Assembly: GCA_009733575.1 (NCBI GenBank)
Contig: ML769472.1
Coordinates: forward strand, 63,731 to 127,730
Direction of reading: 5' to 3'
DNA: 64,000 bases
From: Gymnopus androsaceus JB14
Lineage: Eukaryota; Basidiomycota; Agaricomycetes; Agaricales; Omphalotaceae
Part shown: positions 1 through 51,766 of the stretch, one piece after another
Numbering within the stretch: position 1 is the stretch's first letter
Layout: each line of letters begins with the position of its first letter
Translations under genes and position numbers: made by a program
Notes under the pieces: model-generated
Told to the model about the DNA's origin: nothing
What the model saw: only the letters and a program-made list of their open reading frames with translations
Database searches by the model: none

Positions 1-3000
1 CCAGTACAGGAGATTGCTTCATTTTTTGGTGGTGCATAAACTTTCCCAGAAAAACGACGAGATCGTCACCGTTGAGCCGCCAGTTTACCAGGCAGTAAAT
101 CCAAGTGTAGGACACTATTAGCTTCGAGGACAAGAGATTGCTTCACTTCCTCGCGGCTATCTTGTCCAGGATGCTAAACTTGTCAGAGCTAGGTAAGTTA
201 CCAGCCTTCATGGGCAAATAAATTATCTGACTAGTCTAACTCAGTCTCAGTTCATAGAGACCTTGGATTTCAACGCCGGCAGCTGGTCCCAGACATTGAA
301 GGTCCGCTGTTCCTTCAGTGTAACCTTTCATATTCTGGTTCACTTTCAACTCTTACGGACATAAATAAAATATCAGACCTCCTTTGTTCAACGACATTCG
401 CCTTTTAATATCTCGAATCCAAAAATCTGGAACCCGATTTTCATTGTCATAGAGAGAATGCCACGTTCTTCCGAGTCGTCTCTTGAAATCATCCGCTTCT
501 CTCATGGAACCCTTTAACCTGTCCTCTACGACCTGAAGATATTAGCTCAGAGCTGGTCAGCTCTGAAGCACCTGCGATCCAGGATAATTCGCTCTGGATA
601 GACCGAAATGCGTTACGCCTCGCTCCTTACTTCATTTAGCGTCAAAGCGCTGCCATTGCTACCTCTCAGCATACCCCCCGAAATATTATTCCGTTTCAGA
701 AACTCCTTAGGTTGGATGCTGCATTCTTCTGTAAATGACTACTAGCCCATATCCTCGCTCAATTTTTGCCTGGCTATGCCCGCCGCCGCCATGGAAGCAG
801 GCACCCTCCGTCTCCCCTCTCCTTCTAGGCTTGCCAAAACCCGAGTGGGAAGTTTATTAGCCGATTGCAGATGAAGAGTTCGATTTTGCGGCATGAAACA
901 TGGTGAAAAATAAATCTGCAATAGTGAACCAACAAGCAGTAAACGCCGCATCCTGCTCGTATCTTGATGTATAAAATTTCTCCCTTCACGGAGCCGAGCT
1001 AACTCGTCGTTCGCTTGCTGTAGTCGCGTTAGGCTGCAAGCTCTTTCTTCCAATGTCTCCGGAGCTCGTTAACGGGAGGAATGGACGCGACTTCGGTTTA
1101 TGTTTCACGGTTGCGCCACTAATCGACCCCTCGCTCGGTATTTGCTCACCTTTCTACTAGTACTCACCTTCGAGATTGGGAACAAGGGATATTTACTATT
1201 TGGGACGGTGTGGCCCGGAAACTGGGACCAGCCAATGCCAAGACCGTCCAGGGACTATACTCCTGTAATGGCGGAACCCGAGTGCAAAGCTTGTAAGTTT
1301 CCTTGACCACTTCACAGGTTACGGCTCGGAATCGAGTGCTACCCTCTAATTAGTAGTATTGATTTTTCGGTCGACGGTGGGCTAAATTCAGTGCTCATTG
1401 CTACGCTCCCTGACGACATGGACCTGATGCAGACTCTATACTCTGTGACTCGACTTCGCACGTTTCAGCCACGTTTACTCAAGAGGTTCATTATCATCTC
1501 AGGTTTACTTAGAAATGCTCGCTGGTAGTTTTTGTTGTCCCTAATTTATGATGAGGCTAACGTATGGCAATGACACCAGGACTGAGTACCGATATGTATC
1601 TCTCAGAAACAATGTCACAGAATCATTTTCACCTATGCATAACGGGACCCAACGCATAGAGATGCTTGCCCACTCTGGTCCATTGCTGAAACGGTTCCCT
1701 GGCCTATACAATCTGTGCGCCGCCCCGTCCTAGATGGAATAGATTGCAGTTCACCGTCCATTGATTCACCGCCACTCCACAACCGTGTAACCTCGGCTAT
1801 ATGCCGGAAAACACAATACTGTAGGCTAAGGCTGATAGGCAAAGCTCTAGTCTAGCCTGGTATAGGTAGTGATTGATAACAAGCAGCACTACCGCAAAAC
1901 TCAACATTGCGCTCGCAGGTAGTCACCTATACAGTCTCGAAGAGCGTCTCTCTATTTCTGATCTGTTTACAATCCAAAAGGAGAAGCCAGAAAGGTTCAG
2001 GGAACCAGAGGAACCTTTTTAAAAAAACTCCCAAGTCGAAATGAGCATAAACGATTTGACCTTCTGCTCAATGATTCTCTGGCAACCTCATCTAACCATG
2101 TGTTTGTATCTTTTGGTGCTATTTCTGTGGTCGGCGGTCCCACTGAAACAAAAGCGATAACAGCTGGCGTTACTTATTGCGTATACTTATTGCTTGACCG
2201 CCCACAATTGAAGTTCTATGCATAATCAACGGCACTGTCATTGGCACACAAAAAAAAGACCTCGCTATGATGTCTTGCGTGCGTATGCTACTTTCTACGA
2301 GTTCTTGTTGGCTATACTTACTGATGAATTTCAGCGGAAATCATTGCCGTATGATACTTGTGCGAATTCAACTCTTGTCTCCATATTATTATGATCAAGG
2401 AGCGTTGGAGTCTCACGTAAGTATCGAAACTGAGTTGCTGGAAAATGTCCGTGTGCAGCGTGCTCAGCTTGGAACGTGTTTTCTAGTTCGGTATTGAAAC
2501 CCGCCCTCGAAGCCTTGTTGTATCTGAGGGATCTTGGAATGGCGGGTACGCAGGCAGCAGATATCAGATATCATTCAAGGCGCTCTAATGTTTTCACCTG
2601 CCTCTCACACACTGCCTACGCCCTCCACCTACAACCTCCACCTACGACCGGATATTTTTTCTGCTGAAAAACCAGAGAACTACTTCGCTTGCAGTGAGTC
2701 CTACAAGGTCCTACATTTGGGTGTCAGCTCAGCTCATCATGCTTCTTTCAACTTTCAAAGATGTCAAAACTATTGATATCGTGGTCAGATCTTGACGTAA
2801 GATTTGCGAAACCGGGCACAGAAAATTCAACGAAAGCTTTGACCGACCACGCTTCGTGGCTTCGAATATGATGCTTCCAATAAGTATTCAAGGTCTAGAT
2901 CATGTCATGAATCAGGAACGAGTCGAAGTCTGAAAGTCTATGGCCCACAAAGCTCTACATATGTACATACTTGAGAATTGAACTGAATTGCGGGAAAGGC

Positions 3001-4057
3001 ACCCATATTGTCACTCAGATCTTTGAAATGAAAGCGCTCGTTGTATGGATGGCTCTTGAATAACAATGGTACATGTACTCCGAACCCGAAAGGAAGATAT
3101 CACGAGGCGAACGCTGACGTCTGAACAGCGGTGAACGTCAGAGTACGTCAGAGTACTATAATGCTGAAATCAACCGGTTCCTCAAACTACGGCCTCCCAG
3201 GACCTACTACTTAATATGCATATGTACGCGTTCTGCAGATCAACCGCGTTTTATTCGCATCATCATGCGAAATGAGGCATTTACTTTGAAACGAGAGCGC
3301 ATACATAGATTCACACATGGGGCTCTTTGCTGCTGAATTTCCGTAACTTGAGAGGGGAACATATCCCCGCGAAGCAGCGGAGCTCGCACGATCTCCTAAA
3401 TTGAGACGCGTATGCTCGGAGTTTTGTTGTAGTTTGTAGGGCCCATCTTTTTTCCGCGGGTTCAAACAGCGAGGTGGATGTCATCAATCCACGGAGAGAG
3501 ACGTGGACGTGTGAGGTCAGAGAAAGATATATTCCTCATCATTGACGATGAAACTGAGTCCGGGATGCCAGTCAAACTTGCTCCCGGTGTTCATCGACTC
3601 GACAGGACATGCAAAATAAAAAATATCAAACACTGAACATTTGGTCTCCGAGAACATAACATAATAGAGCAATAAAAACAGAAAAAAGATTGATTACAGT
3701 TTATTTATACGGCAGTGCTAGTGATACTTTTGTAAAGCGCATGATTGCTCATGACGCGGGTATGTATAGAGCGCGTCGCGGTGATGATGTCTGAGGTCTA
3801 ACAAACGTCAAAACCAAAGGGGGATGGCGGACAATTGTACAGAGTCCAAAGGTTTGAGAGCGAAACTTTTGGACAAACGGGAATGAAGTAGAGCGACGAT
3901 AGCGGGATTAAGAGCGATTAAGAAGTATTATGGCTACAGACAAGATGTGTTCTGGATGAAAGACGATGGAGTCACAGTGTCGCATAGAAGGACAAAAGCT
4001 AAAGGGAGTAAGTTAGCACATGAAATAATGCACTGAAGGAAAAGAATGCTTACTGTT
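1..4057. other. Gene-poor left end, possible F-box/LRR debris
   Basis: No gene could be assembled here. Around 676-705 (+) the reading SIPPEILFRF resembles the start of an F-box, and 240-480 and 1350-1500 contain short leucine-rich readings, but their order is wrong for one F-box/LRR gene and stops interrupt them. The short open frames elsewhere have no recognisable domain or splice pattern. Best read as intergenic DNA with possible F-box remnants. Confidence 0.3.
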
Positions 4058-4546
4058 TTATTTATAGGCAAGGAAGTAAGCCGAGAGAGCAGGAAGATCA
4101 TTAGGGCTAGCGTCAGTGTATCCTTGACGCCTAGACCCGTTGAACTTCAACACAACCACGGTTCCGCACCATGCCTTGGAAGCTGAGCCGCAAGTGATAT
4201 TGAAGATGGAACGGTTAACAGGTGCATTCCTCTGCAGGGCAGTAGGAGAGTACCAGAGGTGAAGAGGGAATCGAAGATTTTCGCCGTTCAGACCCTGAGT
4301 CAAAACGATGCCTTCTGTGAGACCGTCGTGGAAGAACATGTTAAGAATGGGGATGGGGCATTGTCCATGGGTGCTTCGTGAGGTCGGGCGACAATGAACT
4401 TGGGTAGTAGTCCATCGGTCTGAAATAAACTATATTAAAACCGAAAGCCGCGGTTAATACTACAAGTACGCACCAGCTTCCGGGGAAAAAAGAATTGCTG
4501 TAACACTAATATATTGAGGTTCTGCTGGAGGCGGAGTGGCAATCAT
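4058..4546 (-). CDS. Small agaricomycete-specific conserved protein
   Basis: Two exons, 4474-4546 and 4058-4419 on the minus strand, join in phase (73 + 362 nt = 144 residues plus stop) across a 54-bp intron with a GTGCGT donor. The start codon is the first ATG of the exon. The protein opens with a proline-rich stretch, contains a PIPILNMFFHDG segment, then RFPLHLWYSP, and ends in a C-terminal block with KFNGSRRQGY and NDLPALSAYFL. From memory this C-terminal block is shared by uncharacterised mushroom proteins. No signal peptide, membrane segment or catalytic motif is visible and the function is unknown. The frame is intact, unlike many genes in this window. Confidence 0.65.
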
Positions 4547-5391
4547 ATTGGTGCTGGCGTAGCTTGCCGTAGGTTGGGGTTTGACACATTCTAAACGATG
4601 GCGAGCCCAATCCTAAACGCGTGCCACTCGTCAGCATACTTTTTGCAAGTTAGAGAATGGGACATACTGATTGCAAGTGTTCTGGACAACAGTACCATGC
4701 ACTCTGGCAGCGGCTGCACCACATTGAAGTGGGATTTCCGCAGAGTGTGCAAGCTTGGTTTATGGCGGTTTGCATATTTTGATAGAGGAAGATGTAAAAG
4801 AGGCGGGGAGAGTGCGATGGAGAGCAATCATCTGTGGGCGTATTTAAAGAAATTCAAAAACGGGTAAGGCCGCTTGTTCTTGACGCGAGTTCGCGAGAGA
4901 AAGATCAAGATCGATGAAATGTGAGCATCAGGAACTACGTGACAGTTTGCTGGTATATTCAATTTTTTTGCATCAGTTCAGTTCACCGAGCTTTGAACTG
5001 ACTTTTGACGCTATGTATTGCATAATCATAATGGGCAGGAAGAACGTATGGCGAGTGCGGGAGTCCTTGCAAAAGAATGCAATGCAAGGGTCCAAGCGCT
5101 CAATTCGATACGGTGATAACGAAGGAAGGTCAAATTCCTCCCTTTCTCCATTGGATCCGAGAGAAAGGGTTTTTTCATTTATTTGAAACGATGTTTAGTT
5201 CTGATTCGGGCACAAGAGGCGTTCGATTAGGGGCCGAGATACAAGCTTCTTTTTCTCCAAAACAGGTTTTTTTTTAGCACGTTAGGTGGCAGGGGTCCCA
5301 GTGCGCTTATGCCGTCCGAAATCTATTAGATTTTATCCGGCTTTGTGACTAACCGCTTACGATGCGTGACATGTGACATCGCGCTTCAATC
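4547..5391. other. Intergenic, divergent promoter region
   Basis: Separates the minus-strand small gene from Y14 on the plus strand, so it probably holds both promoters. Open frames at 4598-4867 and 4914-5186 have no domain and no splice context. Nothing else is supported. Confidence 0.4.
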
Positions 5392-36759: not shown

Positions 36760-37041
36760 ATGGCCATATGATATACTGTTTCGTAGTAAATACTTTAACC
36801 CTTTGCTATACAACTACAGTAAGTTTGTATAAATGAATGTGTCTGTAATTCGCGCGCGACAACTTGAACCTCGTGGGCGCGTTGCAGTGTCTAAATAAAC
36901 GCACACGAGCGCTACACCCTCTCTCCAGTGTAGATCAATAACACGTCGGTATCTTGAATCCACTAAATCCACGAAAAAGCCATGTTCTTAATATGACTCC
37001 GATTATATTACTGTAAATGTTGCATCTTTATTCTTTCCATC
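36760..37041. other. RTC4-MFS intergenic region, copy 1
   Basis: Starts with atactttaaccctttgc, a block that recurs at 51768 and, slightly diverged, near 61760. It provides the reference for placing rearrangement breakpoints. Confidence 0.6.
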
Positions 37042-38786
37042 ATGTCCATACAAACTGACCAGATTGTTGAACTTACTCCTCGTTCAGTTCCTGCAGTCTC
37101 CTACCACGACAGTGCGGAATCAGAAGGTACTTCAGGGCAGGCTAGCGTCAACGCTCCATCTCATGTACAGCAGCTCCCTCCTGTCGACGGTGGATTCCAC
37201 GCTTGGGCTTTCGTCAGTTATACGAATTTAATCTGTGTTTCCGCTCATTTACACCTTGATTCATTTAGCTCGGGGCTGCCTTCTTCATTGAAGCCCTCGT
37301 CTGGGGATTTCCCGATGCTTTTGGAGTGTTTCTAGACGGTAGGCACAAAATACGTCGATGATACCATATATTCATATATATATCCAGCTTATCTTGCAGA
37401 CCCGATTTACACCTCCCAACACAATGCTTCTTCACTTATACCTCTGATTGGACCTATTTCCTCTGGAATTATATACTGTGTTGCGCCCTTCATCACCCCA
37501 CTCATTAATCGCTACCCGTCTTACCGCCGGCCAGCAATGTACATCGGCCTTTTGGTATGCTGGGCCTCTCTGTTCGGCGCGAGCTACACAACCAAGGTCA
37601 CCACGCTCGTCGCCTTGCAGGGTGTCTTATACGCTCTCGGCTCTGCCTTGCTCTATTTCCCGTCACTTTCGTATCTCGCTGAATGGTTCATTAACCTCAG
37701 AGGATTCGCAAATGGTGTTCTGTTTGCTGGGACGGGTGTTGGAGGCATCGTCCTTCCGCTGACGATATCTCGACTGTTGAGTGCATATGGAGTGAATGTA
37801 ACGGTGAGGATATTATCGGTAGCAATGGTTGTTTTACTTTTGCCGTTGCTTCCATTGGTAAAAGGGAGGTTGCCTGTGGGGTATAACGCGGTCAACGCAG
37901 AAATGCGCCCAGTCCCTAGGGGAAGTGCGGCAAGTGCAAGATCCTGGATGCGATCGATTCATTTTTGGGTGCTGATGGCTGCAAATACGATACACGGGTT
38001 TGCATATTTCGTACCTCTTTTGTGGTTACCAAGTAAGTCAAAGTCTTTCGTTCACTGCACTTGCTGACTGACTATGTATGGCTAGCCTTTGCAAGCAGCC
38101 TGAATCTGAGCACTACTAAGTCGTCTGCTACAATTACTGTATTTCACAGTACGCATAATTTCTATCTCAAGCTTATGCATAGAGGTTTTCATTCTAATTT
38201 CTCAGCTGGCTCTTTTCTTGGCCGTCTCTTAATGGGTTACCTGTCCGACAGAACTGCGAACTGCTTGCTTCTTGGGCTTGGCTCTCTGCTCGCTACCTCT
38301 GTCACGACATTCGTTCTATGGGGCGTGTGTAGTACAAATCTCGCTGGGTTGCTTGCTTTCTCAATGATGTTTGGATTTTTCGCTGGTAACTGGCCCAGCT
38401 TATGGAGTGGATTTGGGAAGGTATTGACTAGTAAGCAAGATCTACCAGTATATCCTTCTAATTCACTTCAACGACATTGCACTATAGTAAGCGATCCAAC
38501 GTTGTCCATGACGCTATTTGGCATGCTACTCTTCTCGCGTGGACTAGGGAACATAGCTTCGACGCCAATATCTTCTGCCCTAACTGGAATTTCCTCGTCT
38601 TCTCCTTCTCAAGCAATCTCTGGCTCGAAGTCGGTCCACTTTGGTTCAGGCTTTGACGTCGCCGGAGGACGCTTTTCCACTACCATTGTGTATGTGGGGA
38701 CGTGTTTCGCTGGGGCGGGGATAATATTAATGTGTGGATGGGTGGTAGATTTGTATCGACTCTCAAGATCTCACAATTTATCTTAA
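37042..38786 (+). CDS. MFS transporter, monocarboxylate-porter type
   Basis: N-terminal cytosolic segment (MSIQTDQIVELTPRSVP) then PPVDGGFHAWAF, the typical start of fungal MCT-type major facilitator proteins (usually D-G-G-x-x-A-W). Membrane segments include AAFFIEALVWGFPDAFGVF, IPLIGPISSGIIYCVAPFI, MYIGLLVCWASLFGAS, VLYALGSALLYFPSLSYLAEWF, GVLFAGTGVGGIVLPL, VVLLLPLLPLV, then loop and second half with SFLGRLLMGYLSDRTANCLL, SMMFGFFAGNWPSLW and YVGTCFAGAGIILMCGWVV. Substrates of this family include monocarboxylates and other small acids; the actual substrate is unknown. Several short introns interrupt it, and the spliced model between 38420 and 38500 is uncertain. Broken copies lie at 44.8-45.5 and 62.1-63.7 kb. 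Confidence 0.8.
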
Positions 38787-39295: not shown

Positions 39296-41624
39296 TCACC
39301 TCTCTTGCGCACCCCAATTGATGCTGACACATTTACCAACTTGGATCTATACTTCAGAGTGATTAGCTTTCTCTTGTAGCAAAAAAAACCAATATTTTAC
39401 TCACCCTCTGACCCTCCATTGTATAATTGTCAAACATTCGCAAGGCTGTTTCTCCACCTTCATCTGTTTTAAATCTGTAACATACATGAGACAACTCACT
39501 ACCAAGAAAGTTTGAAGAAAGACTTACTCAACCACTGCATGTCCTAGTCCATTACCACTACAGTCACTGTGTAAGCTGGCCCATTCCACTTCCCCTGCAG
39601 TATTGAACACCTCCCGAATGCTTTCACTTGTTGCACTATCTGGGAGCTTTGTAATGTAGATCCGCCTGTTTACAGCGGAACCAAAATTTGAGCACATTTG
39701 GACAAAACGAGATATGTATCCTTGCCTATTATGAGTTTGATGCGAATCTGTCAACATTTTCATTTTCCACCTTCCCCACCTCCTTGAAAATTCCGACACA
39801 AGATAGCCAAAATCTGGATACCATGACAAAAACAGTTGTGCCCACACCGCAAGTAACAGTAACACACTGGCCATCATTGGTAGATCCTCTGGTCTTTCTG
39901 TAGAGTACACAACAATGACCAGATTGATGCAGAGCTCCAAAATACTGACACCGATTCCAAAAACATGAAGGAATGTTAAGTTGTGGGCAGTTATTTGTAA
40001 GATAAAACGCAAGTCGGTCCATATAGTAATGCGAAAGGAAGCCAATTTAATGTGACCTGAGAGAGAGAATCTGATAGCAGAAATCAGAAAGAAGGGAATT
40101 GAGGGAGTTGTCGATATCAAGAAGACATTATTGGAAGGACTGCGATAAGGTAGCTGTAGCGTTGCTACCCCAAAAAATCCAAGCAAAGGTTGCAAGACAA
40201 GCAAAATACGAGCCTTGCCTGAAAAAGTGGCACTGATGATAGGCAAGCCACTTGCAGCAGGATCAGTTAGCCTACTGAGAAAGAATGTATCCTCCATATT
40301 GGGACGCGAGGAAGCATCGGAGGACCAACACTCTGACATTAAACTATAAACAGATTGTTTGGCTGCCAGAGTTATAAAGCCGGGGGCTTCCAAGACACAG
40401 GATTGACAAGGTCGCATACCATCAGTGACCTTTTGCAGAATGAGAACATCACTACGAATATGATCGTACGGTGTCCGACAGGATATGAGCTGCATATCTA
40501 TTCTGTCAATTGCACATTGTGACCAAATGATTTCACACTCACCTCCCAAAGCAATATGCCAAATGCATAAACATCGACAGCTTGATTGGGTTCTGAGCCT
40601 CCATCAAAGAGCTGTTCCGGTGCAGACCACCGAAGGCTTCCAGCGGAAATAAGAGAGTCAATTCGAGGCGTCATGGTATTTGTGTGGTGGAAGGTACTGA
40701 GCCCAAAATCACACAGACATGCGTTATGCCATTCATTGATCAAGACATTGCTCTGCAGGGATTCAGTCGAACGGTATCCAAAAAAATCAAAGGATAACCT
40801 ACACTCTTCAAATCCCCATGGACAATACCAATAGAGTGCATAAACCTCAGACCATCTGTCACATTGAGTACGAGTCGTTGAATATCAGCCGAGGGATTAG
40901 AAGCAATGTAAGAGACAATGTCTCCATTTTCCATCCAAAGGCTTGCGAGACTCAGCTCTGAGGGCAGATTGATATATACTGCTATGAAAGGTAGGATGTT
41001 AGGATGCCGAAGTTGAGACCACACAGATGCTTCGCGCATAAAAAGCTGTTTGACGGTATTAAGTCAACCAAACAGTACAAAAGACATGAACCTTACCTTG
41101 TGGACGCGGTCTTTGTCCTCATATGTATACACCCGTAGCCTTTTAAGCGCAACTGTACGAGGCCCTTGATGTCCTAACTCCAACACCCACGAAAGACGTC
41201 TGCGTAGCCCCCACGACCAACAGGGTGATGAGATTCCAGCTGAGGATACTCATCCATAGGCCGCCTACACCATGTCGGTAACAATTTGTATTGCTCACAA
41301 AGATTTCTTAGCCTTCTAAGTGATCGACGATATGAGTTGATGAAAAAGTCACTTCCTCCTCCCTCTTCTATGCTTCTAACAGTGTGCTGGGCTTCACTGG
41401 ACAAAGACTACTCATATCCCCCATCAGCGTAGTCTTGAAGAAAAGTCTGGGCACCTTACAAGATCAAGAGAGTCTATGCATTGTTGCGCATCTTCCGGTG
41501 AAAGATTGTAGTCTATTTGTAGATGGTCTGCCATATCTTGAACTTCGTCTCCATTTGTCCTTGCCATGAACTGTGTGTCGTCAAGTACGACTCGGTCTTG
41601 AGCTTCAAATGCAGCATCTTCCAT
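39296..41624 (-). CDS. TKL-type protein kinase fused to membrane segments and an RRM
   Basis: Seven exons (41460-41624, 41097-41407, 40803-41045, 40543-40752, 39528-40489, 39405-39474, 39296-39346) give about 670 residues if one base is missing near 41190, the only frame break. Kinase (about residues 125-385): glycine loop GRGGYADVFRG, VALKRL lysine, αC glutamate in REASVWSQL, RHPNILPF, catalytic loop HGDLKSSNVLI, DFG in CDFGLS, SAPEQL, VDVYAFGILLWE, CWSSDASSRP. All catalytic residues are present, with HGD in place of HRD as in other mushroom TKL kinases. Four hydrophobic segments follow (about 400-555; RILLVLQPLLGFFGVATL, FLHVFGIGVSILELC, MMASVLLLLAVWAQLFLSW). The C-terminus is an RRM: RRIYITKLP as RNP2, GLGHAVVEF as RNP1, ending GKCVSINWGAQER. 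Exon 5 is one open frame covering kinase C-lobe, membrane region and start of RRM, so the fusion is not a splicing guess. Function unknown. Confidence 0.82.
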
Positions 41625-41737: not shown

Positions 41738-42096
41738 TAGGGACTAGCATGGTCGCCCCGGGTGCTGCCCGGGGGCGGACTTTGAAATCCGCATGGATTT
41801 CAATCCACCCGGGGCAATTTTCACGGTTACGGGTGACCACGGTTGCAGTACCTGACCATAATGATACATCTAATCCATTGATTTACTATATTAAGCATGC
41901 CAAAGCAAGGCGTTTTGCAACTAAAAAAGCTCATAGGAAGGACTAGAAGTATGTAAATATGCAATTATAATGAAATGTTTGTACACTTTGATCCCAATAG
42001 TATCAACTTTTGTCAGATGATCCTCCTCCTCCTCTCATAGCACTCTCTAATGCTGATACAGCTTCATGAAAATCATAGAAAGGTGCATTGCACCAA
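41738..42096 (+). mobile_element. hAT-like element, left part only
   Basis: Near-identical to 50512-50871: it begins with the terminal sequence tagggactagcatgg and ends within the element at gcattgcaccaag. There it is joined to the 3' flank of RTC4 copy 2. The 8 bp before it (ctccgatg) differ from the target duplication of the complete copy, so it is a separate insertion or a rearranged piece. Confidence 0.8.
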
Positions 42097-42133
42097 GAGT
42101 ATCTACCACGGAAACAGTATATCATATGGCCAT

Positions 42134-44048: not shown

Positions 44049-44073
44049 NNNNNNNNNNNNNNNNNNNNNNNNN
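44049..44073. other. Assembly gap (25 N)
   Basis: A run of 25 undetermined bases. It truncates RTC4 copy 2, and the sequence on its right side is unrelated to RTC4, so order and orientation across it are not certain. Confidence 0.98.
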
Positions 44074-44819: not shown

Positions 44820-45510
44820 ATCTACCACCCATCACACATTATAATATCCGCCCAGCGTTTAACACGTCCCCCACATACGCAATGGTACTGGAAAAGCGTC
44901 CTCAGCGGACTCAAAGGCCGACCAAAAGTGGACGACTTTGATCAGAGATTGCTTGGAGAAGGAGAAGGACGAAAAATTCCAGTGGAGGGCAGAAGATATT
45001 GGCGTCGGAGCTATCGTTCCCCGAGTCACGCGAGAATTGAGTAGAATTTCCAACAGCGTCATGGACAACGTTGGATCGTTCACTACAGTGCAATGGTTGT
45101 TGAAGAATTTAGGGAAGGGCATACTTAGCAGATCTTGGCTTACTGTCAATCCTTCCCAAATCCACTCCCATAAGCTGGGCCAGTTACAGCAACGCAAACA
45201 TCATTGAGAAAGCACGCAATCAGCGAGGTTTCATAGGAACGAATGTCGTGACAGAGGGTAGCGAATAGAGAGCCAAGGCCCAAGAAGCAGCAGTTCGATT
45301 CTTTTGTCGAAGAGGTATCCATTATGAACGGAAGGAAAGAGCAGCTAGAATAATGGGGTGCCTCTATAAGCTTTGGGATAGCAATGTGCGTTACTGATGG
45401 AAAATTACATGGATCGTGCAGACGATTTAGTTGCTGCTCAGATTCAGGGTGGCTTGCAAAGGGCTAGCCATACGTATTCAGTCAGCAAGTGGTGAGACTA
45501 GGATATGACT
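44820..45510 (-). pseudogene. MFS transporter, copy 2, C-terminal fragment
   Basis: The minus strand matches copy 1 from about 38050 to 38790: it contains NWPSLWEWIWEG, NDPTLSMTLLEILLNSR, PTPISSALHWNFSS and FWSAFESAEDAFPV in the copy-1 order. The N-terminal half is absent, and stops and indels interrupt the first part (45200-45510). On the minus strand it lies upstream of RTC4 copy 2, the reverse of copy 1, so the pair has been rearranged or misjoined at the gap. Confidence 0.8.
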
Positions 45511-46620
45511 TACTTGGTACCACAGAAGAGGTACGAAATACGCCAATCGTTTATCGTGGTTTCAGCCATTCAACAGGCAAATACATGTGCATCCGAATCT
45601 TGCCTTTCCGCCACTTCCCTAGGACTGGAGCGCGACTCTGCCATTGTACAGGTTATATCCCCAGGTAATGTATTTATTAGCTCCTTCGACGAGCTATTTG
45701 ACTGATCACGGAAAAAAAAGCGGACGACGTCCTGAGCTCTGGCCTGACTTGCATGTACAAGGCCCTCCTTTGCCTTGCTACTACGCCCGTAAGCACTTCC
45801 AATGCATCCTTTTAGCGCGAAAGCTGTCGGACCAAAAGTGGACTTTATTCGTCAAGCTCTCCAAGCCAATAGTTCCTCTTCCGTGTCGTACACATGGCCT
45901 TTGGAACACATCGTTTGGCCACAGAGTGCTGATCTCGGTTAGTTTTCGATCCTCTTGTAGTTTAGGGGATGTACTGACCATTCTATACAGGTCTCTGGAG
46001 CACTGGAAATGGCTGGGGCGAGTGGCTGGAAATGACTCCTATCCTTCGGACTGTAATGAAAGCTTCCCGCTACACTGCACATCCGGTTTGGAAAGATTCG
46101 AGGGCCGTCAGCAACCTCTGACTTCTTGGATCCAGGAATTAGTCGATTGGTGCCATCGGCTCGCCTATTGATGGACGATTCTTGCTGCGCAACTACCTCA
46201 ACGACACCCCGGCGATTGCTTAGGCTATGGCACAACTTCAGCCTCCTCCCTCATTTGGCTTCAGTCCGCATACAGGTCAGTTTCAGTTACAGTCAACATT
46301 CATTGATACGCTCTGACGCTGTGTCATTTCTTAGAAGGCTATTCTGCAAACCGCGCACTTTTGGCTCCTGAAAATCGATGGACAGATTGTATCCGCGCTA
46401 TTTTAGACCGATCACTGCCTTCTGTCAACCCGCTAGGCATGGAGTGACACCCAACCACCGTATACGGTAGTAGCCCTGAAGGACAGAAATTTGGTCGTTT
46501 TGATGGGTATGCTGGCATGAAGGGATTCGTTTTTGGTGGACATCTGCCGGGAGTATGGGGGCATCTCCTAAGAGAGCAGGAATGGCAAATTCCGTAACTA
46601 AAGGATTCGGAGTACTTCAA
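45511..46620 (+). pseudogene. Six-hairpin glycosidase (GH105-like) relic
   Basis: Scattered but ordered motifs of a fungal six-hairpin glycosidase: VDFIRQALQANSSSS, TWPLEHIVWPQS, then after an intron (about 45937-45989) GLWSTGNGWGEWLEMTPILR, SNL-SWIQELVDGAIGSPID, LLRNYLNDTPA, SVNPLG and GSSPEGQ. The GLWSTGNGW, LLRNYLND and SPEGQ blocks are typical of this family, which acts on unsaturated or rhamnogalacturonan-type oligosaccharides. Stops occur after SNL, within YLND-PAIA, and after NPLGME, and the GNGWAA catalytic region is altered. I judge it non-functional unless the region is badly misassembled. Assignment is from motif memory. Confidence 0.55.
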
Positions 46621-47741
46621 GAATGGTTATCACATAGTGGCGGCAGCAGACAAACAAGGAGGACCATTCTACTATTCCCAGTCCCCGCTTCTTACTTCCC
46701 AGCTTTCCAGACCCTGGTCCAAAAACGGAAGCTTACCTTGGTAGTAAGAGTGACTCTTGACACCCGCGCTCGCATCTGCATTAGCGTCGAGGCGCGTTGG
46801 CTTGGAACCCAATCGGTTCTCGGAGTAGCCCCAATCCGAACATGTATTATTATTCACTCCTTCGGCCGCTGCAACTATCCATTCGTTTACCGATGCTTCT
46901 AACTGTGAATCACTGGGTCACAGCATCAATCTTCGGGGCTGTTGGCAGGCTCTTCTGTGAATGATGGGGTCTCCCGCCATTTTTTAACCACGGATTTCGG
47001 CAATCCCTCTGCATCAAACTTCTACGAAAATGATCGGAATTGAAAGCGTTTGACCAACCGGCAAGGAGAAAATCAAGCTGGCCGTACCAGGGTATTAATA
47101 GTGATATATGGGAAGATTGCCATATGCAAGGTTCCACCAGGACTTTGGTGATTTGAAGTGGGGGAATACTCTTCGCTCTCCAGCTTGAGCATCCGAATTG
47201 TTGCGACGTCGAAATACGGGCCCTATCAAGGGAAAAGATCAGTAGGCCAGCCCTACGGGTAGAAGATGTTAGCATAAGATATAGCACCGGGGTTGTTAGA
47301 AAATCACGCAGATGCTAGGTATTCTTTCTGGTCACGGTCATCCACGATATCTGTTAAATATTTATTATTTCCCTAGGTTTTTGGACTTTTAAATGAAAGA
47401 ATGCATACTGCACTGAACGAAACCCACACAGTGGGTGGCAGGACGATGCATAGCTGGACTGACTCTACCTCCCCACTTGCTTCAAACATGTTACCTGATA
47501 TCATCTTCACTAACCAACAGGTCCAACATTGATACAAGAGGTCTTCATGGCATGGGGTTATGCAAAGGGATCAAGTGTACTAAAAAAAAAGACCTACTGG
47601 GGTATGGGTGACAACAGAAGGCTTTGAATTTCATCATCGATCCATCTCTGTTCCCTAGCTTTTCTGCTCCAGCATTGAGGCGCAAAGTAGAGATGAACAC
47701 ATTCTTCACATCATGATATACCCGAGATCAAAAGAAAGCCC
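46621..47741. other. Degenerate sequence, no supported gene
   Basis: Short frames on both strands (for example 46910-47287 minus) have hydrophobic patches that may continue the decayed kinase's membrane region, but no RRM or other motif could be read. Confidence 0.3.
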
Positions 47742-49407
47742 TTACAGCTGACCCATAGAAAGACAAACGAAAAATCGCTGAAGGTTCTTCTGGTCCCCAG
47801 GCCTCATGGAATTCTGCAAATTCGTTGAAAGAACCCCAAGGAAACAAGGAGAGATTGCGCCTGGAATGGCAGTAAGATGCCACAGCAGTGCAAAAAGCGT
47901 ATTATAAAGTGTTTTTCCCAGTTTCGGGATGGCGCCCACATCAACCAAGGCTATAATTCCATACGTCCGCAGGGAGGACTGGCTAGCGCACAGCAGGATT
48001 ACAAAGATGGCGGTGGTGAATATAACAACTGTAGCCAGGAGGTATTGTTGGCAGTGGAGGAACGCCTCAAGCTCTTGCAGCAAGGCCCAGAGCATGTGAT
48101 TGCAGCGATACCAATGAGGGATCGATAATATCAACATACAAGGGAGACAGCCATGAAATCTCCGGATTTTTGGGGAGGGCAAACGTCTGAAATAGGCATT
48201 GACGCCAATCCGGCTGATTTTTTGGGCCGGGCATGCGGAAAGGTGGCCCAACAATTTTCTCATAGTTTTTAACTATGGAGATTGGCCAACGGTCTGCAGG
48301 GTGATCGGTGAATCATGCCGAAGCAAGGTCGGAATCCTTGAGAGACATGTAACCATGGGACCGACTGGTCGTGGAGAGATGTTCATAGGGTACTTTCGGA
48401 CATTGTTGAATATCACTAGGAAGGTTTTGGAGAGGAATTTTTGAGCTCGGCTATTGAACGTACCTCCCAGAGTACAACTCCGAAACGCATACGCGTCACT
48501 TGCCGAAGGAAGGGTTTCTTCGGGACAGGAGAAAAGAGTAAGTTCAGGTGCTAAGCCATCTTATACTTCCTCCCCAAGAACAGTAGTTGTCCTGAAGTGG
48601 CCGTTCCAATCTGTTGGTCTACAGCATTGCGATATACATTGGACATTCCCAAAGTCTGATAGACATGCCTCTTGATTTTCATTTACAAGAATGTTGGCCT
48701 AGATGAACATCTTCATTAAGAGCTGGTACCAAGTGTAAGATTAGGGATGGAAGTAACGCGCACTCCCTTAGGTCTCCATGGGACGACACTGATCCATGAA
48801 GAAACCGACAACCGTCGATAATGTTCAAGATCTTTGAATTGGATTAACGGCGCGTTCACCGCAGAAAGGATATGCACATTACGAGAGGTTGGATATCCGT
48901 TTCAGGATGTTCTTCAAGTAGGAGATTATATTGCCATGGTTCATCCATGGGGCTTATAAGACATGGGCTCGGTGCGTGTACCAGTGCAGCGATAAACGGC
49001 GCTATATTTCTGTGATTTGCGTGTTTCAAATGACGGCCCTCAAGGAAAAGCAGCTGTCAAAGCCTGAATGAGCAACGACTTGTAAGGAAAAATCATGATA
49101 AGAGACAAACTTCGGGTTTTGCTGCAGCAAAACATCTGGGCGTAACCTTTTGGACGGCGATCTGACCAAAACTTCCAGTGAACCCTCGATTATACTTTCT
49201 GCAAATCCTCCTTTTTGCAAAAGCCTGACATTCAACAACCAATCCATTAGTTTCTTGAAGAACGCAAGTCGAAGGAAGACGCGATATCTTTTGCATGCCT
49301 TTGCTCAAATGACGAAGTTTTCGCATTACTGGGAGGCGTTTGACAGGATCAGTTGCATTGACGCCTCTAGATACGACGTTGCAACGGTTATTTGTCATAC
49401 ACAATGA
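47742..49407 (-). pseudogene. Decayed TKL kinase with C-terminal membrane region
   Basis: Kinase motifs appear in order on the minus strand but in different frames: GGFAESIIEGSLE (glycine loop), KRLRPDV (lysine strand), LKHANHRNIAPFIAALV, APSPCLISPWMNHGNIISYL, HGSVSSHGDLRES (catalytic loop), NILVNENQEACLSDFGN (DFG), SIRWL-APEL, DAYAFRS and CWATFPHARP. A hydrophobic region follows (LLATVVIFTTAIFVILLC, NTLFALLWHL), as in the intact kinase at 39.3-41.6 kb. More than five frame breaks and stops make expression of a whole protein impossible as written. No RRM is recognisable at its 3' side. Confidence 0.65.
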
Positions 49408-49872
49408 GGGATTAAAGGATGCGCAACCTGGTCAAGGTTCGTTTATCGCTTGTTGGGCAGGCAATCGTCGCAAAGGTCATGTTGCGAGAGATGGTTCTGC
49501 GTCGACTCTGGATAACTCAATACCATCCTTGTCTTCGTCCCTCAAGTAACGGTCTTTGTACATCTTCAAAGCGACTTGTTTGCATTGGGTACATTGGTGA
49601 TGTTCTGTTTTTGAATAGCTGTATTCATGGGATTGGCACGTCAGCCTAGCGCGGCCGCCTAACGATTTGCAAGCAGACTGCGGGCCCATCACTGGGTAGT
49701 GGCATCAAATAATTTCGGGGCGAAATTTTATATCGAAATTACTTTAGGAGGTTATTCAGTCTGAATTTCGCCCGTAATCTCTTGGAGTCAAATCGAACTC
49801 ATTTCTCTTTCAGATTTCAACCGAATCACTTTACTGTAAGAGGGAGGAGATTTTAGTTCAGAAGGACACTTA
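49408..49872. other. No supported gene
   Basis: A minus-strand reading VALKMYKDRYLRDEDKD at about 49540-49580 resembles a kinase lysine strand, but nothing around it supports a second kinase. Confidence 0.25.
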
Positions 49873-49880
49873 TCTGGCTA

Positions 49881-50247
49881 TAGGGATCCGCACATAACCG
49901 GTATACGGTTACGGGCCGTATAAATACGGGCTGTAAAAACAGCAAAAATCTCTTTACGGTACGGTATACGGTGGCGGCTGCCAGCACTCGTATACCCGTA
50001 TTTTTACGGTATACAGCCACATCAGATCTCAAGCCGGTCCCGGCCAATATCAATGATTGCAAAAATCATTGATTTGACCATTTTGGGACCTACGGGCGTA
50101 ATGCTGGACTGCAAAATTCTTGCTGTACGGGGTACCCGTATAGTAGCCGTATAAAGTGTCTGTGGACACCCTTTACGGTACGGTTACGGGTACCCGATAT
50201 ACCCGTTAACCATAAGCCGTATCTTACGGTTACGGTGCGGATCCCTA
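49881..50247. mobile_element. hAT-type MITE (367 bp) with 8-bp target duplication
   Basis: The ends tagggatccgcac and gtgcggatcccta are perfect terminal inverted repeats. They are flanked by direct 8-bp copies of tctggcta at 49873-49880 and 50248-50255, the target-site size of hAT elements. The interior has many gtatacgg/ccgtatac and cgggtacc subterminal motifs in both orientations and no coding capacity. A non-autonomous hAT element. Confidence 0.92.
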
Positions 50248-50511
50248 TCTGGCTATCATGTTCAATAAATGAAGAAATTATAAGTTATTTCTGTGTGATT
50301 ATTCGCTGTGCAAATCGTGCCACCTTCAAAAATGTAAGCCAAAAAGAATGTGTTAAGAAAGCTATTAAATAATGCTCCAATTGCCTTCAAAGCTGGGTAT
50401 AGTATTGATTGCCATCCTGGTATGTCACTGTATGCTCGGAATTATTATCGCTTAAATGTGGAACAGTACTTACACTGTCGGAAGCAGCGAGCTCAAAATT
50501 TGTGCGCTTCT

Positions 50512-51257
50512 TAGGGACTAGCATGGTCGCCCCGGGTGCTGCCCGGGGGGCGGACTTTGAAATCCGCATGGATTTCAATCCACCCGGGGCAATTTTCACG
50601 GTTACGGGTGACCACGGTTGCAGTACCTGACCATAATGATACATCTAATCCATTGATTTACTATATTAAGCATGCCAAAGCAAGGCGTTTTGCAACTAAA
50701 AAAGCTCATAGGAAGGACTAGAAGTATGTAAATATGCAATTATAATGAAATGTTTGTACACTTTGATCCCAATAGTATCAACTTTTGTCAGATGATCCTC
50801 CTCCTCCTCTCATAGCACTCTCTAATGCTGATACAGCTTCATGAAAATCATAGAAAGGTGCATTGCACCAAGGTCCCAGAGCCATTGATGACTTGAATGT
50901 ATTACATGGAGAATCAACATGAAGGGAGCGATATGGCTTCTAAAAACAGCACTGGCTGTAGAGCGAACAAGGGTGAAGAAGCTACAAGATGACCTTAAGT
51001 TAGCAAGGGGGCAATAGATACTCACCACTAACTGTAAAAGACTTTCTCTTATTGTTTGATGCAGTAGAAAAGATATTATTTCATTTATTAACGGTCGTGT
51101 CGTACAGGAAGTAAAGAAGGCACCAAATCACGTACCGAACCACGGATATCCATATCCATCCCGTACCCGTGGAAAAGTCCCCGCCCCGTACCCGTCCGTA
51201 AATTCACGGGTGGGCATGGGTGGATACCCGGATTCTCGAATCCATGCTAGTCCCCTA
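50512..51257. mobile_element. Non-autonomous hAT-like element (746 bp), complete
   Basis: Begins tagggactagcatgg and ends ccatgctagtccccta, an imperfect inverted repeat with one extra base. It is flanked by direct 8-bp copies of gcgcttct at 50504-50511 and 51258-51265. Subterminal GC-rich blocks with ccgtacccgt-type motifs occur at the right end, and a gccccggg/cccggggc inverted repeat at the left. No transposase domain is encoded. A partial copy lies at 41738-42096, and an inverted right part forms the second arm of the palindrome. Confidence 0.9.
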
Positions 51258-51766
51258 GCGCTTCTCATGCCACACGTGATATCAGATCACGGTTTCTAAC
51301 TCCCCTGAATCATCGGAGTCCGATGATTCAGGGGAGTTAGAAACCGTGATCTGATATCACGTGTGGCATGAGAAGCGCTAGGGACTAGCATGGATTCGAG
51401 AATCCGGGTATCCACCCATGCCCACCCGTGAATTTACGGACGGGTACGGGGCGGGGACTTTTCCACGGGTACGGGATGGATATGGATATCCGTGGTTCGG
51501 TACGTGATTTGGTGCCTTCTTTACTTCCTGTACGACACGACCGTTAATAAATGAAATAATATCTTTTTCTACTGCATCAAACAATAAGAGAAAGTCTTTT
51601 ACAGTTAGTGGTGAGTATCTATTGCCCCCTTGCTAACTTAAGGTCATCTTGTAGCTTCTTCACCCTTGTTCGCTCTACAGCCAGTGCTGTTTTTAGAAGC
51701 CATATCGCTTCCTTCATTGTTGATTCTCCATGTAATACATTCAAGTCATCAATGGCTCTGGACATA
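50870..51766. repeat. 0.9-kb near-perfect palindrome
   Basis: Arms 50870-51317 and 51319-51766 are reverse complements around a single central base at 51318 (tcatcgga-g-tccgatga). The arms include the right half of the hAT-like element plus about 60 bp of its flank with the gcgcttct target copy. A few single-base differences exist between arms. Could be a real fold-back duplication or a chimeric-read join. Confidence 0.92.

Follow-up and report, generated by a model that had tools for sequence, protein, structure and literature searches.

Kinases that carry an RNA-binding-type domain of their own are rare (PKR and UHMK1 are examples), and we know of none with membrane segments in between. UHMK1, also known as KIS, has no membrane segments; Ire1 combines in a single chain a kinase, a passage through the membrane and an RNA-related domain. 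Endosomal mRNA transport is known in fungi, where the RNA-binding protein Rrm4, which is not a kinase, is joined to endosomes via partner proteins. For Ustilago maydis, excerpts of two papers describe Rrm4–Upa1 endosomal mRNA transport, a case of an RNA-binding protein working on a membrane (PMC4466420, PMC9249222), and an excerpt of a third presents FslK as a TK-related fungal kinase lineage that is expanded in Agaricomycetes (PMC3937382). Here we describe a gene of Gymnopus androsaceus JB14, found in a stretch of 64,000 nucleotides of contig ML769472.1 (positions 63,731 to 127,730, hereafter "the window"), that encodes a TKL-type kinase, a predicted membrane part and an RNA-recognition motif (RRM) in one protein.

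The gene occupies 41624-39296 on the minus strand, as found by reading three frames and rebuilding the exons from their splice sites. Its eight exons (41624-41460, 41407-41097, which contains a frame break, 41045-40803, 40752-40543, 40489-39726, 39665-39528, 39474-39405 and 39346-39296) are separated by introns of 50-60 bases and lead, ordered and in phase, from the kinase through four hydrophobic segments to a full RRM. The parts are as follows, with the basis for each.

41460..41624, minus strand: exon 1, N-terminal segment (MEDAAFEAQ...IDSLDL); strand reading and comparison with Stygiomarasmius scandens
41180..41407, minus strand: N-terminal helix and kinase glycine loop (GRGGYADVFRG), the frame breaking at the 3' end; strand reading
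41097..41180, minus strand: kinase beta3 with the ATP-binding lysine (VALK), in the glycine-loop exon with the frame one base off; 26 nucleotides against 9 codons in two relatives
40803..41045, minus strand: kinase alphaC to catalytic loop (REAS ... HGDLKS); identical to the deposited protein P0001 from the Met at 41039
40543..40752, minus strand: kinase SNVL, DFG, HHTNTMTPRIDS activation segment, APE, to LLWE; strand reading
39726..40489, minus strand: exon with the end of the kinase C-lobe, the four hydrophobic segments and a basic RRWGRWK stretch; hydropathy and splicing
40151..40213, minus strand: predicted membrane segment 1; hydropathy, helix in the orthologue models
40067..40126, minus strand: predicted membrane segment 2; hydropathy and orthologue models
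39908..40009, minus strand: predicted membrane segment 3, its hydrophobic core in the second half; hydropathy and orthologue models
39812..39880, minus strand: predicted membrane segment 4; hydropathy and orthologue models
39666..39725, minus strand: GC-AG intron, 60 bases, in frame, no stop; absent from P0001 and matched in a paralogue (paralogue C, below)
39528..39665, minus strand: RRM exon 1 (RIYITKL ... GHAVVE); strand reading and Pfam
39405..39474, minus strand: RRM exon 2 (FKTDEGGETALRMFDNYTMEGQR); strand reading and Pfam
39296..39346, minus strand: RRM exon 3 (IQVGKCVSINWGAQER, stop); strand reading and Pfam

The frame-break exon aside, the exons are open and their splice sites usable, and the deposited G. 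androsaceus JB14 protein (P0001, 489 residues) equals the spliced window translation throughout (149/149 plus 340/340 residues). When the joined window protein was compared with Pfam, it matched PF07714 (E 1e-36, 127 bits) and RRM_1, PF00076 (E 4.5e-10, 39.7 bits against a cut-off of 20.7); no Pfam family scored above its cut-off in the N-terminal part. The RRM_1 match runs over positions 1-69 of 70, in agreement with the proposal of a first-pass annotation that two further exons complete the RRM. That annotation had also taken 39528-40489 for one long exon, which proved wrong, as the stretch contains the GC-AG intron at 39725-39666 that is spliced out in P0001. Because this intron contains no stop and its length is divisible by three, it resembles an exon. 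The 20 residues that it would add if left unspliced are absent from all five other fusion proteins that reach the RRM, P0007, a metagenome protein with 91% identity to S. scandens, ends precisely at the intron junction, and an intron of paralogue C matches this one in place and phase.

Searches of a protein collection found the order kinase, membrane part, RRM in six species, and the fusion of the three in phase, first proposed from the window alone, thus gains five further species: besides G. androsaceus, these are S. scandens (644 residues), Dendrothele bispora (639 residues), Marasmius tenuissimus, Marasmius sp. AFHP31 (whose model ends short of RRM strand 4) and M. crinis-equi (incomplete at the N-terminus). 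The deposited fusion proteins are labelled "kinase-like protein" or "hypothetical protein". In a profile search, 113 of the 7999 scored proteins reached E <= 1e-10 and PF00076 was listed for exactly six of them, the fusion proteins, which scored 530-1371 bits, with the next protein at 261 bits; P0007 is a fragment of the fusion kind that ends before the RRM, and no RRM was listed for the other 106 of the 113. An open stretch of 254 codons, reaching from the C-lobe to the linker, by itself has p ~3e-6 in random sequence of its composition; with the same architecture present in five further species, chance is excluded as its origin.

Alignment of the fusion proteins shows the RRM to be conserved to the same degree as the kinase. 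From alphaC on, the kinases of G. androsaceus and S. scandens are 75% identical, their RRMs 72% and their membrane parts 39%; against M. tenuissimus, the values are 60% (kinase), 62% (RRM) and 26% (membrane part). Judged by these alignments, conservation equal to that of the kinase would not be expected of an RRM that was a mere passenger domain, and the RRM of the window copy has only 2 lineage-specific changes, against 4 and 7 in two relatives. The sequences show that the RRM is under constraint. In a kinase-domain tree of P0001-P0006 and P0008-P0040 (42 rows, counting second kinase domains, without P0007 and P0041-P0113), the six fusion kinases group together as one clade, supported at 100/100 and set on a long stem of 1.05 changes per column. 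As the fusion kinases make up a single, fully supported clade, the fusion is old and no error of gene models.

The genome also holds a diverged paralogue with the same kinase–membrane–RRM order, paralogue C, about 26 kb from the window gene on the same contig and outside the window (C90:131323-133414, or 2824-4915 of the region L011, C90:128500-135500). Once it is spliced by eye, its glycine loop, lysine, HGDLK, DFG, membrane part and RRM lie in open frames, and both introns within its RRM coincide in position and phase with those in the RRM of the window gene. Since order and introns are shared, the fusion predates the duplication. The gene is thus not a single copy in the genome; the paralogue lies in the region of another kinase match on the contig. 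A further kinase, at C130:178959-179863, was considered as a relative and rejected: its downstream frames, read by eye, hold no RRM or comparable membrane part, only a zinc-finger-like stretch.

The kinase part matches PF07714 in all six fusion proteins (90-136 bits, cut-off 23.1) and has a predicted fold like that of RAF or RIPK kinases; a PDB comparison covered mainly the kinase part, the membrane part lying outside its reach. By eye, the glycine loop, a VAxK-type lysine, HxD, DFG and APE/SPE (SPE in Marasmius) are complete in P0002-P0005, with P0006 partial. The Arg of HRD is not kept, HGD standing in its place in six of six fusion proteins, and HGD.K is found in 33 of the 113 profile-search proteins. 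The activation-segment string HHTNTMTPRIDS, possibly a regulatory or substrate-specific loop, occurs in all six fusion kinases and is absent from the other 107 proteins (its place is not covered by P0007).

The window copy has the same kinase motifs, so that the earlier statement that all catalytic residues are present holds as far as their letters go, but not for the reading frame: near 41180, 26 bases of the window correspond to 9 codons in S. scandens and D. bispora, and this one-base break puts the glycine loop and the ATP-binding lysine in different frames. With the N-lobe frame one base short, the deposited model lacks both, its start falling beyond them. Exon 1 and the glycine-loop exon are nonetheless identical to S. 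scandens P0002 at 72/117 positions (62%). A mini-intron that would remove the break was tried and rejected, as the only GT-AG pair that restores the right frame (by eye) spans 38 nucleotides, compared with 50-60 for the other introns, and would delete conserved residues. Either an assembly error or a real mutation may underlie the break; an excerpt of the report on genomes including that of G. androsaceus gives Illumina and PacBio as the sequencing platforms (PMC8480192).

For the membrane part, hydropathy and structure models of an orthologue predict four helices, and a membrane-tethered kinase with an RRM, as put forward at first, is supported by these predictions together with the conservation. 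An even number of segments would place kinase and RRM on the same side of the membrane. In the orthologue modelling, a 7-row alignment gave the kinase block a predicted local distance difference test (pLDDT) score of at most 46, and a second model added 20 more kinases. The hydropathy profile of S. scandens has a weak fifth peak (466-484) beside segment 3, which in the model forms with segment 3 a single 35-residue helix; the count of four in the hydropathy scan is not clean.

The RRM scores above the RRM_1 cut-off of 20.7 in all six fusion proteins (34.8-44.2 bits), and the orthologue is predicted to adopt the beta-alpha-beta-beta-alpha-beta fold (strands 563-567, 588-594, 604-609 and 630-636; helices 575-582 and 612-622), with a match to RBM7 in a fold comparison. 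Compared with PDB sequences, the RRM profile matched best (among the best 60 of 196 matches) the RRMs of PABP (poly(A)-binding protein), nucleolin and PUF60, which are RNA-binding proteins. A chance Pfam match was considered and is ruled out by the scores in six proteins, the predicted fold and the PDB matches to RRMs. With the RNP motifs numbered in the usual way, the RNP2 Tyr is kept in six of six species; likewise invariant are the RNP1 His and Val and, on strand beta2, one Trp and one His. By strand alternation, the Tyr, the Trp and both His would lie on the RNA-facing sheet. Binding of RNA by this RRM is plausible.

Other features surround the gene. The window segment 45039-51734, on the minus strand, has 92% identity to the paralogue region L011, of which it is a copy lying about 13.5 kb away. 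Kinase copy B (about 47.4-49.4 kb in the window) lies inside this indel-ridden stretch; over 45039-51500, the two copies differ by 267 one-base gaps and 133 mismatches, and by these differences the segment resembles unpolished long-read sequence or a false duplicate more closely than it does an aged pseudogene. A dispersed repeat, by eye a GC-rich imperfect palindrome, occurs at 41738-42097 and 50512-50675 in the window and at L011 1350-1709, upstream of kinases A (the window gene), B and C; a 176-base probe from it has 23 matches in the genome, counting itself, and two of the remainder lie on this contig. The 360 repeat bases directly upstream of the window gene are 100% identical to the copy at C. 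An MFS-type transporter-like gene (36992-38786; the family name comes from reading the translation) adjoins kinase A, and a transporter-like copy at L011 6217-7001 adjoins paralogue C, 87% identical over 659 aligned bases and differently oriented relative to the kinase. A run of 25 N, either a gap or withheld letters, stands at 44049-44073, about 2.4 kb upstream of the kinase gene.

The reading that we favour, though we regard it as evenly poised, is that of a polytopic membrane protein with kinase and RRM both in the cytosol, the RRM docking on RNA or a ribonucleoprotein (RNP) and bringing the RNP's proteins to the kinase. The kinase would be anchored in the membrane through the four helices, with no lumenal domain, and the RRM, on the kinase's side, would serve as a docking arm for RNA or RNP; docking would put the proteins of the RNP within the kinase's reach, or would cluster kinases on one RNA. 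Here we infer the binding of RNA or RNP, the substrates, the choice of membrane and the control of the kinase by docking. A bolder form, in which an RNA-gated membrane kinase arose in fungi of the Marasmius–Gymnopus group, its cytosolic RRM capturing mRNAs or RNPs at a membrane and so clustering or positioning the kinase to phosphorylate RNP proteins, seems to us possible and, on balance, doubtful.

Several observations weigh against the docking reading. Membrane passage is based on hydropathy and AlphaFold2, and the fifth peak in S. scandens blurs the count of four, since an odd number of segments would place the RRM on the opposite side. Segment 1 in M. tenuissimus and segment 4 in P0007 fall below the hydropathy threshold, segments 2 and 4 score weakly in some sequences, and stretches within the kinase itself also exceed this permissive limit. 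The bias in charge is modest, and two Marasmius proteins have acidic N-flanks. The P0005 model stops short of RRM strand 4, and the RRM_1 match of paralogue C (26.1 bits) covers positions 1-57 of 70 only. The window copy, besides its N-lobe frame break, has 16 lineage-specific changes in the kinase, against 8 and 4 in two relatives, and 18 in the membrane part, against 4 and 6, although part of this excess may be due to phylogeny.

The last two points are those that would fit a recently broken copy, so that the JB14 gene would encode at most a kinase-dead membrane–RRM protein, an explanation that we take seriously while thinking it somewhat improbable. The 26 bases in place of nine codons and the start of P0001 past the glycine loop and lysine are what it would predict, as are the changes in kinase and membrane part in excess of those in both relatives; yet the remaining exons are open with usable splice sites, the two N-terminal exons retain their likeness to S. 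scandens, and the RRM has hardly changed. An assembly error is possible, one-base gaps like those of unpolished long reads being dense elsewhere on the contig, at 45039-51500, but the perfect 360-bp match right upstream of the gene indicates that the neighbourhood is not uniformly poor. That gene prediction merged two neighbours, a membrane kinase and an RRM protein, is extremely improbable. Kinase and RRM domains do mostly occur in separate proteins, but here the C-lobe, membrane part and linker lie in one open exon, with the RRM following after a 60-base intron; the models of six species are concordant, the linker RRW is invariant in seven sequences, and paralogue C has the same order and introns. 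The shared order in six species and the introns of the paralogue are the grounds on which we ruled the merger out.

The same architecture could use the RRM as a protein-docking module, for a partner protein or another RRM, with the kinase acting in ordinary membrane signalling without RNA; we consider this rather unlikely, while giving it appreciable weight. In all six species, RNP1 positions 3 and 5 are His and Val rather than aromatics, which replaces two of the three aromatics typical of RNA-binding RRMs, and paralogue C has Leu in place of the RNP2 Tyr, from which it follows that the RRM may bind protein instead; UHM-type RRMs such as that of UHMK1 offer a precedent for protein binding. 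The invariant Tyr, Trp and two His, if they face RNA as strand alternation suggests, argue the other way, as do the RNA-binding proteins among the closest PDB matches.

Should the RNA-gated kinase prove real, it would give these fungi a membrane-bound signalling route of their own, leading from RNA to phosphorylation. A conserved single-chain protein of this kind would make a direct link between RNA, membrane and phosphorylation testable in fungi, and it would show domain fusion giving new functions within the large kinase expansion of mushroom-forming fungi. The first-pass annotation knew of no such arrangement, and its novelty stands so far: among the titles and excerpts listed from the open-licence literature on kinase–RRM combinations, none concerns a fungal protein of this kind. 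The parts are known, and the combination is undescribed as far as that literature reaches.

Compared with known systems, the fusion proteins share with the TKL-type kinases of Agaricomycetes (PF07714, "kinase-like") the TKL/TK-like kinase domain and the HGDLK catalytic loop, and differ from them in having an RRM and in their long-stem clade; PF07714 has at least 153 exon-level matches in this genome. The likeness to Ire1-type sensors suggested at first did not hold up. In Ire1 and RNase L, a kinase is joined to a KEN nuclease, whereas here the order is kinase, membrane part, RRM; searched with Pfam to E <= 1, neither the window protein nor any of the six fusion proteins has a KEN ribonuclease or other nuclease domain, and there is no large lumenal sensor domain, the S. 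scandens loops predicted to face away from the kinase and cytosol being only about 8 and 14 residues long, so that the kinase would not sense the lumen as Ire1 does. Rrm4 of Ustilago maydis, as excerpts of the work on it present it, is an instance of basidiomycetes coupling RNA-binding proteins to membranes. UHMK1, an animal Ser/Thr kinase with a U2AF-homology RRM, shares with the fusion proteins a kinase and an RRM-type domain in one chain. Its UHM motif, R-x-F in the loop before beta4, is not evident at what would be the aligned place, which by eye reads YTM, YEM, YVM or YIM, but an R-x-F string (for example RMF or RTF) stands one turn earlier. As a model for substrate recruitment through an RRM fold, UHMK1 offers, by analogy, the closest precedent for RRM-type docking by a kinase.
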